Shown here: piece by piece, positions 1,334 through 17,921 of the stretch
Numbering within the stretch: the first letter of the stretch is position 1
How the letters are laid out: each line of letters begins with the position of its first letter
Virus record (IMG/VR): IMGVR_UViG_3300040758_000585
Span: 1 to 24,796 of that record
Strand: one strand, 5' to 3'
Length of the DNA stretch: 24,796 bases
From: a virus
Position numbers and translations under genes: made by a program
Notes under the pieces: generated by a model
What the model was told of the DNA's origin: nothing
The model's input: only the letters and a program-made list of their open reading frames with translations
The model's database searches: none

Positions 1334-1673
1334 AACCATTCTGCTCGGGATCGCCAGAATCAAGCGCTGGTGGAACGGGACGCCTGTCCAGGTCCGGAAG
1401 GCGCACGCATACTCCATCCATGGATGGACGCGCGATGAAAACGGCATTTATCGCAACGGGGCCACGTTTCCGGAGTCGGATTCGGTGATCTTCCGGGATG
1501 GCCGGAGCTGGATCAGACAGTACCGCGCGGCGGGGTTCGATGTATTCACGAACCCGGAGGAATATCCAAACCTACATGCGGCCATCCGGCGAGAACGGTC
1601 GGAGACCACGGACGGTCGAATCTACCTGGTGGCCGCCGATCCGGAGACTCCACTCCTGGACCAAGGCGAGTGA
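1317..1673 (+). CDS. Hypothetical protein, 118 aa
   Basis: ATG 1317 follows GGAGGG (1308-1313). A start at 1239 in the same frame would add 26 low-quality residues and cover the 42-aa gene, so 1317 is preferred. The protein begins with a basic segment (MRRVNKTILLGIARIKRWW) and continues with an aromatic, mixed alpha/beta-looking body (SIHGWTRDENGIYRNG, SVIFRDGRSWIRQYRAAGF). No catalytic motif or membrane segment is clear. The TGA overlaps the ATG of the helicase-methyltransferase gene by 4 bases (1670-1673), so the two are probably co-translated. The family is not recognised. Confidence 0.6.
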   Translation: MRRVNKTILLGIARIKRWWNGTPVQVRKAHAYSIHGWTRDENGIYRNGATFPESDSVIFRDGRSWIRQYRAAGFDVFTNPEEYPNLHAAIRRERSETTDGRIYLVAADPETPLLDQGE

Positions 1674-4261
1674 TGAAGAGCTACCGCGAATTCCTGGAAT
1701 CGAAGTCGGTCATCGCTGTCGAACGAGGATACGACGGACCGGTGACGTTGAATCCGGACCTCAAGCCGCACGCTCGCGATATCGCGGCTTGGATGATTCG
1801 CGGTGGCGCGCGGGCTTGCTTCGCGAGCTTTGGTCTGCATAAGACCTCGATTCAACTTCAGGTGTGCGAATCGCTGCTGGACGTGTTTCCGGGAAACTCC
1901 GCGCTGATCGTGTGTCCGCTCGGCGTCCGCCGGGAATTCAAAAAAGAGCAGGTGGCGCGCGGATTTCGGCGGGCTCCGGTGTACGTCGCCACCAATGAAG
2001 ACTACGAGCGGTTGCGCGCTGCGGGAAATGAACTGTTCCTGACGAATTACGAGAGGGTCCGTGACGGCGCGCTTGACCCTAACCGTTTCCACATCTGCTC
2101 GCTCGATGAAGCGGCCGTTCTACGGTCCTTCGGATCGAAGACCTACCAGACGTTCCTACCGTTGTTCGACAGGGTGAAGTTTAAGTTCGTGGCGACGGCA
2201 ACGCCTTCGCCGAACCGATACAAAGAGCTGATTCACTACGCCGGGTTCCTTGGCGTGATGGACACCGGGCAGGCTTTGACGCGGTTCTTTAAGCGGGACT
2301 CTTCGCAGGCGGGGAACCTGCAATTGCATCCGCATAAGGAGCGGGAGTTCTGGATCTGGGTGAGCACCTGGGCTACGTTCCTGACGAAGCCTTCCGACAT
2401 GGGGTACTCCGATGAAGGGTACATCCTACCGCCGCTGAACATTCATCGTCACCGATTGCCGGTTGACCACACGTCCGCCGGCTACGATTCCTGGGGACAG
2501 GGGCGGCTACTGCGCAACGCGGCGGTGAGCCTGAGCGCGGCGGCCGGCGAGAAGAGGGACAGCCTCACGGCGCGCGTCCGGCGGTGCAAAGAGATCATCG
2601 AGGGGGCGCCGGACCGGAGTTGGATTATCTGGTGCGAGCTGGAGGATGAGCGCCGGGCGGTGGAACAGGCGCTGCCGGGCGTGCGGTGTATCTGGGGAAG
2701 CCAAGACATCGAGCATAGGGAGGCTATTGTCGAGCGGTTCGCCGAGGGCGAATTGAAGCTCTTTGGCACGAAGCCGAGCTTGAGCGGGTCCGGCTCAAAC
2801 TTCCAGGAGCACTGCTATTCGAACATCTTCCTCGGGCTCGGGTACAAGTTCGCCGATTTCATTCAGTCGATTCACCGGACCCAGCGGTTCGGCCAGGTGC
2901 ATCCGGTGGATGTCCACCTGATCTACACGGAATCGGAAGATCCGGTCCACGATGCGCTGATGGCGAAGTGGAAGCAACACGATGAACTGCACGCCACGAT
3001 GGCGGGGATTATCAAGGAGTTCGGGTTGAATCAAGCGAAGGCCAATACGGAGATGCACCGCTCGATTGGGATCGAACGGCGGGAAGAGAAGGGCGAACTG
3101 TTCACGGCCGCCAACAATGACAACGTGCTGGAACTTCAGCGGATGGCGGACGGATCGGCGGACCTGGTTGTCACATCGTGGCCCTTCAGCGACCATTACG
3201 AGTACACCGAATCGTACAACGACTTCGGCCATAACGACGGGGACAAGGGATTCTTTGAACAGATGGAGTACCTCACGCCGGAGGTGATGCGCGTACTGGC
3301 GCCGGGGCGGATGTACTGCGTTCACGCGAAGGATCGCATCGTCTACGGCACGGTGAGCGGCGACGGGATGTACACGGTGAACCCGTTCAGCGATAAGTGC
3401 GTGGAACACCTCCGCCGGCACGGCTTCCGGTATTGCGGGCGCATCACGGTGGTAACGGACGTGGTTCGAGAGAACAACCAAACTTACCGCCTGGGATGGA
3501 CCGAGAATTCCAAAGACGGGACCAAGATGGGCGTGGGTTCGCCGGAATACGTGCTCCTATTCCGTAAGCTGCCAACGGACCGAGCGAACGCTTACGCGGA
3601 TAGCCCCGTGCCGCACGAAAAGCCGCGCTGTGTGGGTCCGGACGGCGAGCCGATACCTTTCGACGCCGGGGCGCCGATGATCGCAGGGACGGGCTACAGT
3701 CGCTCGCGATGGCAGCTTGACGCGCACTCCTTTTGGCGCTCGAACGGGAACCGGTTTCTACGGCCGGAGGAAATCGCCGGGATTCCGATGGATCAGCTCC
3801 GCGCGGCGTGGCACCGCTACAGCCGGGAGAAGGTCTACGACTTCGCCGAGCACGTGGACATTGCCGAGCAGATGGAAATGCGCGGGATTCTGCCGAGCAG
3901 TTTCATGGCATTGGACCCGCCGAATCCCGGAGCGCCGAACGTCTGGGATGACGTTATCCGCATGAAGACGCTGAATAGCCAGCAGGCGCGCAAGGGATGG
4001 GAGATGCACGTGTGTCCGCTCCAACTGGACATCGTGGAGCGCTTGATTGAGCGGTATTCCTCGCCTGGCGATCTGGTGATGGACCCGTTCGGCGGGATCG
4101 GGACGGTGGCGTACTGTGCGGTGCTCGCGGGCCGGCGCGGATACACGGTGGAGTTGAACGCGGGGTATTGGAGCGATTCGGTGGCATACTGCCGGGCGGC
4201 GGAACAGAAGGTGAGCGCTCCGACGTTGTTCGATTTGATAGGTGCGGAGGATGCGGCGTAG
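1670..4261 (+). CDS. SNF2-type helicase fused to N4/N6 DNA methyltransferase
   Basis: This 863-aa protein joins two enzymes. Residues about 40-450 are a superfamily-2 helicase: degenerate Walker A FGLHKT (54-59), DEAA box (146-149), motif III TATPSP (176-181) and motif VI QSIHRTQRFGQ (about 399-409). Residues about 480-850 are an amino-DNA methyltransferase: TSWPF (502-506) in place of the catalytic (S/D)PPY, and DPFGGIGT (805-812), the FxGxG S-adenosylmethionine motif, placed C-terminal to the catalytic motif (beta-class order). Related phage fusions are known to me with TSIPF-type motifs, so the altered motif may be family-typical. The likely role is protective or regulatory methylation of phage DNA coupled to translocation; the target site is unknown. 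No restriction nuclease is encoded nearby. Confidence 0.85.
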   Translation: MMKSYREFLESKSVIAVERGYDGPVTLNPDLKPHARDIAAWMIRGGARACFASFGLHKTSIQLQVCESLLDVFPGNSALIVCPLGVRREFKKEQVARGFRRAPVYVATNEDYERLRAAGNELFLTNYERVRDGALDPNRFHICSLDEAAVLRSFGSKTYQTFLPLFDRVKFKFVATATPSPNRYKELIHYAGFLGVMDTGQALTRFFKRDSSQAGNLQLHPHKEREFWIWVSTWATFLTKPSDMGYSDEGYILPPLNIHRHRLPVDHTSAGYDSWGQGRLLRNAAVSLSAAAGEKRDSLTARVRRCKEIIEGAPDRSWIIWCELEDERRAVEQALPGVRCIWGSQDIEHREAIVERFAEGELKLFGTKPSLSGSGSNFQEHCYSNIFLGLGYKFADFIQSIHRTQRFGQVHPVDVHLIYTESEDPVHDALMAKWKQHDELHATMAGIIKEFGLNQAKANTEMHRSIGIERREEKGELFTAANNDNVLELQRMADGSADLVVTSWPFSDHYEYTESYNDFGHNDGDKGFFEQMEYLTPEVMRVLAPGRMYCVHAKDRIVYGTVSGDGMYTVNPFSDKCVEHLRRHGFRYCGRITVVTDVVRENNQTYRLGWTENSKDGTKMGVGSPEYVLLFRKLPTDRANAYADSPVPHEKPRCVGPDGEPIPFDAGAPMIAGTGYSRSRWQLDAHSFWRSNGNRFLRPEEIAGIPMDQLRAAWHRYSREKVYDFAEHVDIAEQMEMRGILPSSFMALDPPNPGAPNVWDDVIRMKTLNSQQARKGWEMHVCPLQLDIVERLIERYSSPGDLVMDPFGGIGTVAYCAVLAGRRGYTVELNAGYWSDSVAYCRAAEQKVSAPTLFDLIGAEDAA

Positions 4262-5160: not shown

Positions 5161-5201
5161 GGATCTTTCAGGGCGAGACTGGCTAGTCGATACCTATACT
5201 T
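5161..5201 (+). promoter_or_regulatory. Promoter-like element, copy 2
   Basis: GGATCTTTCAGGGCG (5161-5175) and CCTATACTT (5193-5201) have the same 32-base spacing as copy 1. The intervening bases are much less conserved, so the two blocks behave like two recognition boxes. TATACT (5195-5200) is a plausible -10. The element would drive the regulatory cassettes from 5308, and a phased half-site cluster lies directly downstream. Confidence 0.55.
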
Positions 5202-5207
5202 GCGGTA

Positions 5208-5257
5208 GTTGACTTGAAGTTAACTAGCAAGTCAAACGAGGTCAACATGCGGTTGAT
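5208..5257. promoter_or_regulatory. Phased operator-like half-site cluster
   Basis: Related hexamers occur at 5208 (GTTGAC), 5219 (GTTAAC), 5231 (GTCAAA), 5241 (GTCAAC) and 5252 (GTTGAT), spaced 11, 12, 10 and 11 bases, close to one helical turn each. They include a perfect 8-bp inverted repeat TTGACTTG/CAAGTCAA (5209-5216, 5228-5235) centred on the palindrome AGTTAACT (5218-5225). Lying just downstream of the presumed -10, this would suit a repressor or activator binding one face of the DNA. Confidence 0.5.
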
Positions 5258-5307
5258 CCTATGTATTGTAGTGTCTTAAATACAAGAAGCATCTAGAAGA
5301 GAAAATC

Positions 5308-5493
5308 ATGGAAACGACAGCGACGGGACGGGTGCGTTTAAACCGCGTCATAATTTTGAGGAGTGAGGCGGCGCGGCTGATACGCCGAATCGCAACCTGG
5401 ATAGATCCGGAGACTCCACGGCGCCGTGCGGCGCGGCGCGATCAGGGGAGATGCGCTGGAAGGCCTGTATTCATCATGGGGAGGGGTTTGTGA
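5308..5493 (+). CDS. Small basic protein, first gene of cassette A
   Basis: The 61-aa ORF starts METTATGRVRLNR, clearly paralogous to METASVGQVCLDK at the start of the sigma region-2-like gene (5876). After about 20 residues the similarity stops, and the rest is very arginine-rich (PRRRAARRDQGRC). Its TGA overlaps the GTG of the next gene (GTGA). It may be a degenerate or divergent copy of the region-2-like gene. The AGAAGAG stretch (about 5293-5299) before the ATG is a possible weak ribosome binding site. Function unknown. Confidence 0.5.
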   Translation: METTATGRVRLNRVIILRSEAARLIRRIATWIDPETPRRRAARRDQGRCAGRPVFIMGRGL

Positions 5494-5852
5494 GAATCCA
5501 TAGATCTCCAGAGACAGTAATCCAGGCTATCGATAGGGATCGCAGGGAGCGTACTTCGGCTTCGTGGGATACCGTGCGATACGCCTTCCGTGGACAGCCG
5601 GCACTGTCGGAGAGTCCAGCACCTGATGCGTTTCCGGTGTTACTGGTGAGCCGGGAGACGGCGCATATCCCACTGGCCATCGATTGGCAGAAGCGGGTTC
5701 GGGAGGCGCGGAAGGTTACGCGTGAGGTGCTTGATAACTTCTGGGGGGATATCGAGTACAACGCTTCGGCACCATTCCTGCAACTCATGGACGCAGGCGG
5801 ATACAACGAAAGCGCTCGGAAAAATCGGGAGCGTATCGCGAGTGGGCGCTAA
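5490..5852 (+). CDS. Cassette A second gene with YNESAR C-terminal motif
   Basis: GTG 5490 is chosen because it overlaps the preceding TGA and follows GGGGAGGGG (5479-5486); an in-frame ATG at 5451 would overlap the upstream gene by 43 bases. The 120-aa protein has a helical N-terminus and ends with FLQLMDAGGYNESARKNRER. The same peptide, with few changes, ends the sigma region-4-like protein at 6250-6777. No sigma HTH is visible here, so only the tail and the cassette layout are shared. Function unknown. The shared tail suggests a common partner, such as RNA polymerase or another phage protein. Confidence 0.6.
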   Translation: MRIHRSPETVIQAIDRDRRERTSASWDTVRYAFRGQPALSESPAPDAFPVLLVSRETAHIPLAIDWQKRVREARKVTREVLDNFWGDIEYNASAPFLQLMDAGGYNESARKNRERIASGR

Positions 5853-5875: not shown

Positions 5876-6250
5876 ATGGAAACAGCATCAGTGGGACAGG
5901 TGTGTCTGGACAAGCGAACTGCCATTGTCAATGGGATTCTGCGCGGGATGCGGCGGCGTGGACTGCCCGGCAATGTTGACGTGGATGACCTCCAGCAAGA
6001 GGGGGTTGTCGCTGTGTTTCTGTCGGGCATTGAGGGGCCGGAATCGCTGGTTAAGCGGATTGCGCGTAATTCCATGCTGGATTTCTTACGGCGGAAGCTC
6101 CGGGAGAATAAGACCTTTACCGCGATTGACGACTCTCCGGATATGGACGCGCGAAAGACGTGGAAAGACCCGTTTTTCTTTAGTGCCGTTGATGCGCTCC
6201 GGCAGGGACATGAAGAGTGGAGCCGTGAGCGCGCGGAGCGGTGGGCGTAA
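5876..6250 (+). CDS. Sigma-70 region 2-like protein (half of a split sigma factor)
   Basis: The 124-aa protein matches sigma-70 region 2: VDVDDLQQEGVVAVF (about 38-52) corresponds to the region 2.1-2.2 core-binding helix, and LVKRIARNSMLDFLRRK to regions 2.3-2.4, which melt and recognise the -10. It ends after a charged linker (EEWSRERAERWA) with no region 4. The next gene, in another frame, supplies region 4; stop and start overlap as TAATG (6248-6252). Either this is a genuine two-polypeptide sigma (compare SigO-RsoA of Bacillus subtilis), a programmed frameshift near 6240, or an ECF-type gene broken by an indel. The N-terminus is paralogous to the 5308 product. A helical, basic, cytoplasmic protein. 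Confidence 0.75.
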   Translation: METASVGQVCLDKRTAIVNGILRGMRRRGLPGNVDVDDLQQEGVVAVFLSGIEGPESLVKRIARNSMLDFLRRKLRENKTFTAIDDSPDMDARKTWKDPFFFSAVDALRQGHEEWSRERAERWA

Positions 6251-6777
6251 TGACGACTTCTATCCAAACACTCTGGGATGAGTTCCAGAATCTGACAGCG
6301 CATCAGAGGCGCGTAGTTTTCCATATGTACTGGGACGGATATACGGCTGTCGAAACTGCTGAAACGATGGGGATCGGACTGCGAACGGTGGAGCGCGCGC
6401 TGGCTAATGCTGAAAGTCACCTGAAAAATAATTTAGAAAAGGTGGCGGGTTTTGGTGGGTCTCAAACGTTAGTACAGGCGAGAGGGAAAAGCGGGATGGC
6501 TAAAAGCGGCAAAGGGCTAGTGCCTACACAGGCTCCGAACGAGCATAAAGCGCCGCCTAATCTTGAGCGTCCCGCTGACTCTCAATGTCCTCCGCCGGAT
6601 ATCTATGACGCTCTGCTATTTGGCGGCAAGCAATCGGAAGATATGCCAGAGCGGGACGTGTTTCTGGAATCGCTGAATCAGGTATGCGCGTCGGCTTTCC
6701 TGCAACTCATGGATAAGGGCGGATATAACGAGTCCGCCAGGCTAAATAGAGCGCGCATCTCACAGGCGGTGAGCTGA
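6250..6777 (+). CDS. Sigma-70 region 4-like HTH protein with C-terminal extension
   Basis: The ATG at 6250 overlaps the upstream TAA; the same frame also has a GTG at 6241. Residues about 5-55 are a sigma region 4: an LTAHQRRVVFHMYWDGYTA helix pair followed by the HTH ETAETMGIGLRTVERALANA, which in sigma factors contacts the -35 box. A low-complexity linker rich in Lys, Pro and Ser (about 60-125) leads to a C-terminal segment ending FLQLMDKGGYNESARLNRAR, shared with the 5490 product. The 175-aa size far exceeds a bare region 4. It probably pairs with the 5876 product on RNA polymerase. Confidence 0.75.
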   Translation: MTTSIQTLWDEFQNLTAHQRRVVFHMYWDGYTAVETAETMGIGLRTVERALANAESHLKNNLEKVAGFGGSQTLVQARGKSGMAKSGKGLVPTQAPNEHKAPPNLERPADSQCPPPDIYDALLFGGKQSEDMPERDVFLESLNQVCASAFLQLMDKGGYNESARLNRARISQAVS

Positions 6778-6980
6778 TGGCGCGCAAGACCGGTGCGATC
6801 TCCAGTGAAGGCGGGACGGTACATCCGCACTTCTACGAACGGGCAAGCGCGGTTGAGGATCGGCTGATTAAGCTGATCGACGGCGGTGAGGACTTGGCGG
6901 ATTGGTACCCGCGACCGGATCTGAGTACGGTGATTCGGATGCGGCAGGCGTCGGGGATTGGTGGTAGCTACGACGTTTAA
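6777..6980 (+). CDS. Small hypothetical protein, 67 aa
   Basis: ATG 6777 overlaps the TGA of the sigma region 4-like gene (TGATG), so it is translated as part of the same cassette. The sequence HFYERASAVEDRLIKLIDGG looks like an amphipathic helix; the rest (WYPRPDLSTVIRMRQASGIG) shows no recognised motif. It could be a regulator or anti-sigma partner by position, but nothing in the sequence shows this. It is the last gene before the hairpin-rich gap. Confidence 0.55.
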   Translation: MARKTGAISSEGGTVHPHFYERASAVEDRLIKLIDGGEDLADWYPRPDLSTVIRMRQASGIGGSYDV

Positions 6981-7424
6981 ACTCGCAACCACATGCAGGC
7001 ATCGAGCGCCTGTAACATCGAGCGAGCGGATGTTTTTGCGGGGACTCGCATATGCGCCAAGGGGCGCTAAAGGCGATGGGCGGCCTGGACTGCCAAGACT
7101 TTGAGGGTGGACAGTAACCCTCACGGCCGGGTTAGCCTCCGTTGTCCTGATGGACTATCGGCTCGTTTCTTCGGATCGCATACCGAAGTGTGCTGGCGGA
7201 AATGCTCGAATGGCGATGAGCGGTTCAGGGCGAGATAACAAGCCTAGCCAGAGGTAAGGGTCACGGATCAATTCTGCGCGGCTGGTATGCGTGGGATGGC
7301 AGTTCGAATCTGCACCGCCTGCACAATCCTGAACACAGCGAAATTCTTAAAACGCGATGACGTAGAGATTTGGGACCTGACATCGAAGCGTTAAATATCC
7401 GGATCAAGCAACCTATAGCAGGCT
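6981..7424 (+). other. Hairpin-rich stretch without a convincing gene
   Basis: No ORF longer than about 47 codons with a usable start is present, but the plus strand can form many hairpins: CAGGC/GCCTG (6996-7012), GCGCC-AAGG-GGCGC (7054-7067), CGGCC/GGCCG (7081-7085, 7125-7129) enclosing GAGGGT/ACCCTC (7103-7108, 7117-7122), CTTCGG/CCGAAG near 7171-7190, and a T-arm-like hairpin at 7299-7313. TTCAGGGCGAG at 7224-7234 is a partial match to the promoter-like element but lacks its -10. Short ORFs exist (for example 7149-7256, 35 aa) without ribosome binding sites. It could be a structured phage RNA or a decayed gene. Confidence 0.4.
7249..7322 (+). other. Degenerate tRNA-like fold
   Basis: The T arm is good: GCAG-TTCGAAT-CTGC (7299-7313) with a consensus T loop. 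Arm lengths over 7249-7322 can be fitted to a cloverleaf (D stem 7258-7261/7271-7274 with GG in its loop; anticodon stem 7276-7280/7288-7292). The acceptor stem pairs at only about four of seven positions, several pairs are G-T, the anticodon loop lacks T33 in the best-paired register, and no CCA follows. A shifted register would give anticodon GGT. I regard it as a tRNA relic or a tRNA mimic, not a working tRNA. Confidence 0.25.
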
Positions 7425-16890: not shown

Positions 16891-17244
16891 ATGCGCGAAC
16901 GTCTTAATTTCGGGATCAATCCGGGGCGGTTCCGGCACACGATCACACTGCTACAGGCTACATCGGGCGTGGATGCGTCCGGCGTGTCGATCACGTACAC
17001 GCCTTCGGCCGTTAAGCAAAAGGCGGAGATCCGCTACTTGCGCGGGGCGGAGTCACAGAGCAAAGGACAGGACGTTTCGGAGACTTGGATCGAGGTCACT
17101 ACGCGGTACAACCCGGCGCTTGCGCGGTTGAGCCGGTTCATCGCTCCGGATGGGAATCAGTACGTGATCCAGGCTATCGACAACATCCAAATGCGGAATG
17201 TCTACCTGGTGATGAACTGCCAGGGCGTGGGGGCGGGCGCGTGA
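16891..17244 (+). CDS. Head closure / head-tail joining protein
   Basis: The 117-aa protein has the head-tail joining family pattern: GRFRHTITLLQATSGVDASG at the N-terminus, a variable strand region, and the C-terminal APDGNQYVIQAIDNIQMRN. This family (SPP1 gp16, HK97 gp7-like) caps the connector and stops DNA leakage. The start ATG 16891 lies three bases after the connector stop, and the stop overlaps the glycosyltransferase GTG. Confidence 0.82.
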   Translation: MRERLNFGINPGRFRHTITLLQATSGVDASGVSITYTPSAVKQKAEIRYLRGAESQSKGQDVSETWIEVTTRYNPALARLSRFIAPDGNQYVIQAIDNIQMRNVYLVMNCQGVGAGA

Positions 17245-17921
17245 GGCTGAGGCCGGCGGTAACGGCGATCATGCCTACTCGCGGGCGGCCGGAGATGGCG
17301 CGCGCGGCGATGGAGTGCTGGAGGCGCCAGACGGGGCCGTGGTCGGAGCTGGTGATTGTGGATGACGGGGACGATCCCAGCTTTCCGGACGCACAGGATT
17401 CGTTCTGGGGGTACCGGATATCGTACGTGCAACTGCAATCGCGGTTGACGGTTGGGGCGAAACGAAATCTTGCCTGCCAGGTGGCGCGCGGAGAATACAT
17501 CGTCCATTTCGACTCGGACGATTGGTCCGCTCCGGGACGGATCGCGGATCAGGTCGAACGGATGGCGGCCGGGTGGCAGGTAACCGGATACCACACGCTG
17601 CTGTTTCGACAGGCTCCAGGGCTGATGGTGGTTGAGGGCGGCGGGGTACGGCCGGCGCGGGAATGGTGGCGCTATCGGGATCGGCATGGGTTGGCGGCGG
17701 GGACTTCGCTTTGCTATCGGCGGACGTGGTGGGAGGGTCATCCGTTCGCCGATCACAACCTGAATCAGGACGATCTCTTCTACGCCGAGGCGGCGGCGCG
17801 CGGTGTGGCTTGCGCGGTGGATGCCGGGAAGCTGATGTGGGCGCGGAATCACGCGGGGAACGTGAGCGGGCGGGTGATCGGCGGAGACGAATGGGAGGAA
17901 CTCTATGAAGGGCTGGATTAG
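17241..17921 (+). CDS. Family 2 glycosyltransferase
   Basis: GTG 17241 overlaps the head-closure stop (GTGA); ATG 17271 is an internal alternative. The 226-aa protein is a GT-A fold enzyme: AVTAIMPTRGRPEMARAAME, the nucleotide-binding DDG at 41-43, a KRNLACQVARGEYIVHFDSDD run with the DxD metal site at 91-93, and a later NQDDLFY acid segment. It would transfer a sugar from a nucleotide donor. The acceptor is unknown; capsid or tail proteins are natural candidates because the gene sits inside the structural operon. No membrane segment is seen. Confidence 0.9.
   Translation: MRLRPAVTAIMPTRGRPEMARAAMECWRRQTGPWSELVIVDDGDDPSFPDAQDSFWGYRISYVQLQSRLTVGAKRNLACQVARGEYIVHFDSDDWSAPGRIADQVERMAAGWQVTGYHTLLFRQAPGLMVVEGGGVRPAREWWRYRDRHGLAAGTSLCYRRTWWEGHPFADHNLNQDDLFYAEAAARGVACAVDAGKLMWARNHAGNVSGRVIGGDEWEELYEGLD

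Follow-up and report, generated by a model that had tools for sequence, protein, structure and literature searches.

A phage-encoded ECF-type sigma factor probably divided between two overlapping genes

A sigma factor is a protein that directs RNA polymerase to its starting points. Its readers of the -10 and -35 elements normally sit on one chain, and ECF sigma factors are the minimal form, consisting of those two domains only. In the 24.8-kb virus fragment examined here, which we read as a single window, a preliminary description had placed sigma region 2 on one open reading frame and region 4 on the next, leaving the question of whether the locus encodes a true two-polypeptide sigma factor, an ECF gene broken by an indel or a single protein made by programmed frameshifting.

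The first gene, ORF1 (5876-6250, plus strand, 124 aa), encodes a sigma region 2 protein, the half that comprises the beta' clamp helix and -10 element functions, and the second, ORF2 (6250-6777, plus strand, 175 aa), encodes a region 4 protein. In a plain scan ORF1 matched Pfam Sigma70_r2 (PF04542) with an E-value of 7e-5 and 23.0 bits against a cut-off of 24; a whole-frame search, in which ORF1 was taken together with its frame neighbours, gave 24.2 bits, above the cut-off, and returned ORF1 as the sole region 2 match in the whole record. The region 2.2 signature is present in ORF1 as VDVDDLQQEG and the region 2.3/2.4 helix as RIARNSMLDFLRRK; PHROGs gave no match to this protein. ORF2 scored 31.7 bits against Sigma70_r4_2 (PF08281, cut-off 25.7) and 29.6 bits against Sigma70_ECF (PF07638, cut-off 21.1), and matched PHROG 1740 (sigma factor) with an E-value of 4e-11, so that both halves are picked up by independent libraries and ORF2 additionally by PHROGs. 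The residues that follow region 4 in ORF2, previously put at about 120 and counted here as about 115, form a C-terminal extension that matched no family.

The two proteins tile a single profile. Residues 25-110 of ORF1 align to positions 21-120 of TIGR02937 and ORF2 aligns to positions 110-165, which identifies them as the halves of one ECF-type sigma factor, cut in the linker with nothing lost. When ORF1 and ORF2 were joined in silico, 158 residues aligned to the solved sigma factor 7qh5. That two sigma halves lie side by side in the right order and together cover one profile is not a chance pattern, and the codon-position GC content is typical of genes in both frames. AlphaFold2 run without an alignment produced helical models of low confidence (pLDDT 55), in which no sigma fold or usable fold match was found. 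Set against the ECF-type sigma70 family, region 2 is present in ORF1 and region 4 in ORF2, but the two regions do not share a polypeptide: ORF1 ends in a TAA at 6248-6250, the open frames overlap by 22 nt and no frameshift signal was detected. The ATG of ORF2 (6250-6252) overlaps this stop codon as TAATG, in the -1 frame relative to ORF1, and an in-frame GTG at 6241 offers an alternative start. The architecture first described thus stands, and we consider it likely that a phage ECF-type sigma factor is here distributed over two genes that overlap and are probably coupled in translation.

A second pair of genes lies immediately upstream, at 5308-5852, and did not feature in the preliminary description. 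ORF A (5308-5493, plus strand, 61 aa) starts like ORF1 (METxxxGxVxL), and ORF B (5490-5852, plus strand, 120 aa from the GTG at 5490) has a C terminus like that of ORF2. The GTG of ORF B overlaps the stop codon of ORF A (GTGA) and is accompanied by a Shine-Dalgarno-like GGGGAGGGG at 5478-5486; ORF B is in the -1 frame relative to ORF A, with an in-phase GGGTTTG at 5484. Around the start codons of ORF A and ORF1, 26 of 36 nt are identical, compared with a mean of 11.5 (sd 2.7) and a next best value of 20 among 561 start pairs, and with 21 at the best other place in the window. The first 27 aa of the two proteins can be aligned. This match is mainly at the nucleotide level and the changes mostly alter the amino acid, which supports common origin rather than constraint on the peptide. 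The C-terminal motif that ORF2 shares with ORF B, FLQLMDKGGYNESARLNRARI (6697-6759, plus strand), agrees with 5775-5837 at 47 of 63 nt and 18 of 21 aa, the next best place in the window reaching 32 of 63 nt. Here 10 of the 16 nucleotide differences lie in silent codons, and together with the retained residues this suggests protein-level selection on the frame of the ORF2 tail. The middle parts of ORF A and ORF B gave no alignment to the sigma core, and ORF B matched no family; by eye, it contains an HTH-looking stretch, TSASWDTVRYAFRG.

These similarities are most simply read as marking 5308-5852 as a partial copy of the ORF1-ORF2 cassette that has diverged and has no sigma core, and an exchange of the shared ends, instead of duplication and deletion, is another possible origin. 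As the A/B pair is also split, with the ORF1-like end first and the ORF2-like end second, the two-gene layout probably predates the duplication, and this speaks against a recent indel.

Together with ORF3 (6777-6980, plus strand, 67 aa, no function assigned), the two pairs make up a tight array of five genes in the same direction, with GTGA, TAATG and TGATG overlaps, the last between ORF2 and ORF3; overlaps of 1-4 nt are common in the window (10 of 31 junctions). The operon is preceded by a non-coding leader of 147 nt (5161-5307, plus strand) that contains two interleaved inverted repeats, TTGACTTG/CAAGTCAA (5209-5235) and GACTGGCTAGT/ACTAGCAAGTC (5177-5233), and may be a regulated, repressor-controlled promoter. 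On its other side, a gap of 444 nt (6981-7424, plus strand) separates the sigma operon from the recombination and packaging operon. Downstream of this gap are NinB-like, HNH, terminase, portal, protease and capsid genes (the names from portal to capsid are taken from the gene order of related phages), in agreement with the phage context first proposed. A position ahead of the packaging genes is usual for a phage late regulator. Since the operon directly precedes these genes, late transcription would be its likeliest target, and the gap would be the likeliest site of a late promoter. No convincing late-promoter dyads shared between sites were found, the few pairs that exceeded shuffled sequences being GC-rich and non-recurring; standard sigma-70 promoters did not rise above chance, and terminators were at chance level.

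Other features of the window were noted in passing. Within the same non-coding gap, GGCAGTTCGAATCTGCACCGCC at 7290-7320 resembles a tRNA T-arm and 3' end and is possibly an attP core; ARAGORN and Rfam reported nothing. Among the head-tail genes, the ORF at 17241-17921 looks by eye like a glycosyltransferase (ITAIMPTRGRPEMARAAMECWRRQ...) and overlaps its neighbours by a few bases. At 1670-4261 an SNF2-type helicase is fused to a DNA methylase (863 aa), about 51% identical to genes of Mycobacterium, Arthrobacter and Pseudomonas phages and 74% identical to the IMG/VR locus L093.

Relatives of the pair were sought in several collections. Searches of IMG/VR with ORF1, ORF2 and the C-terminal motif returned the same virus only, and no divergent homologue was found of ORF1 or ORF2 in IMG/VR or phages, or of ORF1 in plasmids or genomes. 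The phage collection yielded no match to ORF1 and only weak HTH matches to ORF2, and the plasmid collection yielded noise-level matches to ORF1. Among 80 terminase relatives in IMG/VR, many of them short fragments, none carried a homologue of ORF1 or ORF2, and no sigma pair was seen downstream of the helicase-methylase genes of L093 (74%) and L094 (53%) when their ORFs were read by eye. A scan of 84,980 genomes with the terminase alignment and with ORF1 gave no relative. Two degenerate DNA patterns for DDLxQE...ARN retrieved T4 gp55-like and other region 2 phage proteins but no relative; such pattern-based scans detect close relatives only. At this sensitivity the lineage is a singleton in the collections searched. 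A separate observation concerns locus L101, which at 6678-7310 encodes a phage sigma factor with region 2 only (PF04542, 39 bits; relatives L133, L167 and L168) between RecA-like and nuclease-like genes, and which is probably a late sigma factor of the T4 gp55 type.

The alternatives to a divided sigma factor turn largely on the junction. The two open frames overlap at 6229-6250 (plus strand, 22 nt), and only within this stretch could an indel or a frameshift merge them. The programmed frameshift earlier suggested near 6240 would yield one protein, and ORF2 lies in the -1 frame that it needs, as does ORF B relative to ORF A with its in-phase GGGTTTG. The overlap is short, however, with no slippery X XXY YYZ heptamer in 6229-6250 and local RNA folding no better than that of shuffled sequences (z 0.37), and ORF2 is provided with an ATG of its own, overlapping the stop codon of ORF1; we regard frameshifting as very improbable. 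An error in a single assembly is also unlikely because the identical junction occurs in two other IMG/VR metagenome contigs, at 100% identity over 8.2 and 6.9 kb with zero divergence, although these are not counted as independent samples. A real one-base indel within 6229-6250, leaving a single-gene ECF sigma factor as a pseudogene or barely functional, is harder to dismiss. The fused reading would have the normal ECF order and about the normal length, and no relative was found that shows a conserved split. Nor is the start-stop overlap in itself more than weak evidence, as 13% of out-of-frame stops inside the genes of the window overlap an in-frame ATG by chance. Against this, the break lies within 22 nt situated exactly between the two domains, the paralogous pair next to it is likewise made of two genes that overlap, all three contigs have the same junction and the C terminus of ORF2 looks constrained as protein. 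We therefore judge the broken gene raised in the preliminary description to be less likely than a division, and rather unlikely overall.

The remaining alternative does without a functional pair: ORF2 alone would be a late activator of the region 4 type, and ORF1 would be a sigma-2 protein that is independent or in decay. Late activation at this map position, ahead of the terminase genes, is the role of ArpU/RinA-like and further stand-alone HTH proteins of phages, and phages possess stand-alone HTH or sigma-4-like proteins such as DLane gp55; the long extra domain on ORF2 would also fit. Against it stands the gene just upstream, which encodes a region 2 and completes the same sigma profile in the correct order with no part missing; we find this explanation improbable, more so than an indel. 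The divided sigma factor has points against it in turn: the region 2 score lies right at the Pfam cut-off, ORF1 has no PHROG match, the structural models are of low confidence, divergent homologues and a late promoter motif were looked for and not found, and the chance of overlap is the 13% given above.

With these points weighed, ORF1-ORF2 is most likely a genuine two-polypeptide late sigma factor, its function being deduced from domain content and position. From the established sigma mechanism, ORF1 would dock on the beta' clamp helices of RNA polymerase and open the -10 element, and ORF2 would dock on the beta flap tip and read the -35 element. Translational coupling would supply the two proteins in near equal amounts and, because of this, could allow them to act jointly. 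The position of the operon suggests that the pair would switch on late transcription, making it probable that it is a two-piece switch for late genes, and it is plausible that this putative pair redirects the host RNA polymerase. The tail that ORF2 shares with ORF B might, at a guess, be a regulatory or partner-binding module. More tentatively, and at well under even odds, one could envisage a lineage with a true region 2/region 4 split of an ECF sigma factor, an exchangeable C-terminal module on the region 4 subunit and a duplicated two-gene cassette, whose other pair, having no sigma core, may act as a competitor or co-regulator.

How does this arrangement relate to known systems? Single-chain ECF sigma factors (TIGR02937, PF07638) have the same domain content and order but form one polypeptide. 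A two-polypeptide sigma factor is uncommon, as previously stated, yet SigO-RsoA is not the sole precedent, since T4 gp55 and gp33 have been reviewed as "a split sigma" (PMC2988020), and a phage split sigma is consequently not new in kind. The T4 proteins resemble ORF1-ORF2 in being phage-encoded and on two polypeptides, with gp55 carrying region 2 only and gp33 occupying the beta-flap site of sigma 4. However, gp33 is structurally unrelated to sigma region 4 and reads no DNA sequence (PMC7892883, PMC2988020), whereas ORF2 has a true region 4 match; T4 late activation, moreover, requires the sliding clamp gp45. If correct, the present reading would place beside the T4 split sigma another whose sigma 4 is genuine. 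In SPO1, genes 33 and 34 are also adjacent and overlapping (4 nt, NC_011421) and are annotated as sigma factor accessory and sigma factor, but gp34 has region 2 and a region 4 match, a very weak one, within a single chain, and the pair is therefore not a region 2/region 4 split. SPO1 gp33 has its own Pfam family, Phage_Gene33 (PF25742), which matches neither ORF1 nor ORF2. GafA of gene transfer agents, a sigma-like, phage-related regulator encoded by one gene in Rhodobacterales and two in Hyphomicrobiales (PMC9638019), has DnaA-like and sigma-DNA-binding-like domains and an omega-binding centre, and is compared here by description only.

In SigO-RsoA of Bacillus subtilis, sigma 4 and sigma 2 are on separate proteins whose joint action is required (PMC8103513, PMC10028694), and, as in ORF1-ORF2, the two regions are on separate co-encoded proteins, SigO being region 4 and RsoA region 2. 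That system is bacterial and stress-regulated, with no phage context, whereas in the virus the region 2 gene comes first and the region 4 protein bears a long tail; the A/B pair of paralogues shows a split as well, yet has no sigma core. At present the ORF1-ORF2 split is a single-lineage case. Were it confirmed, a natural two-piece phage ECF sigma factor would mean that there, too, the two domains can do without a covalent linker, and would constitute a ready two-input switch. Likened by domain content, the predicted pair is closest to SigO-RsoA, in a T4-like phage setting.
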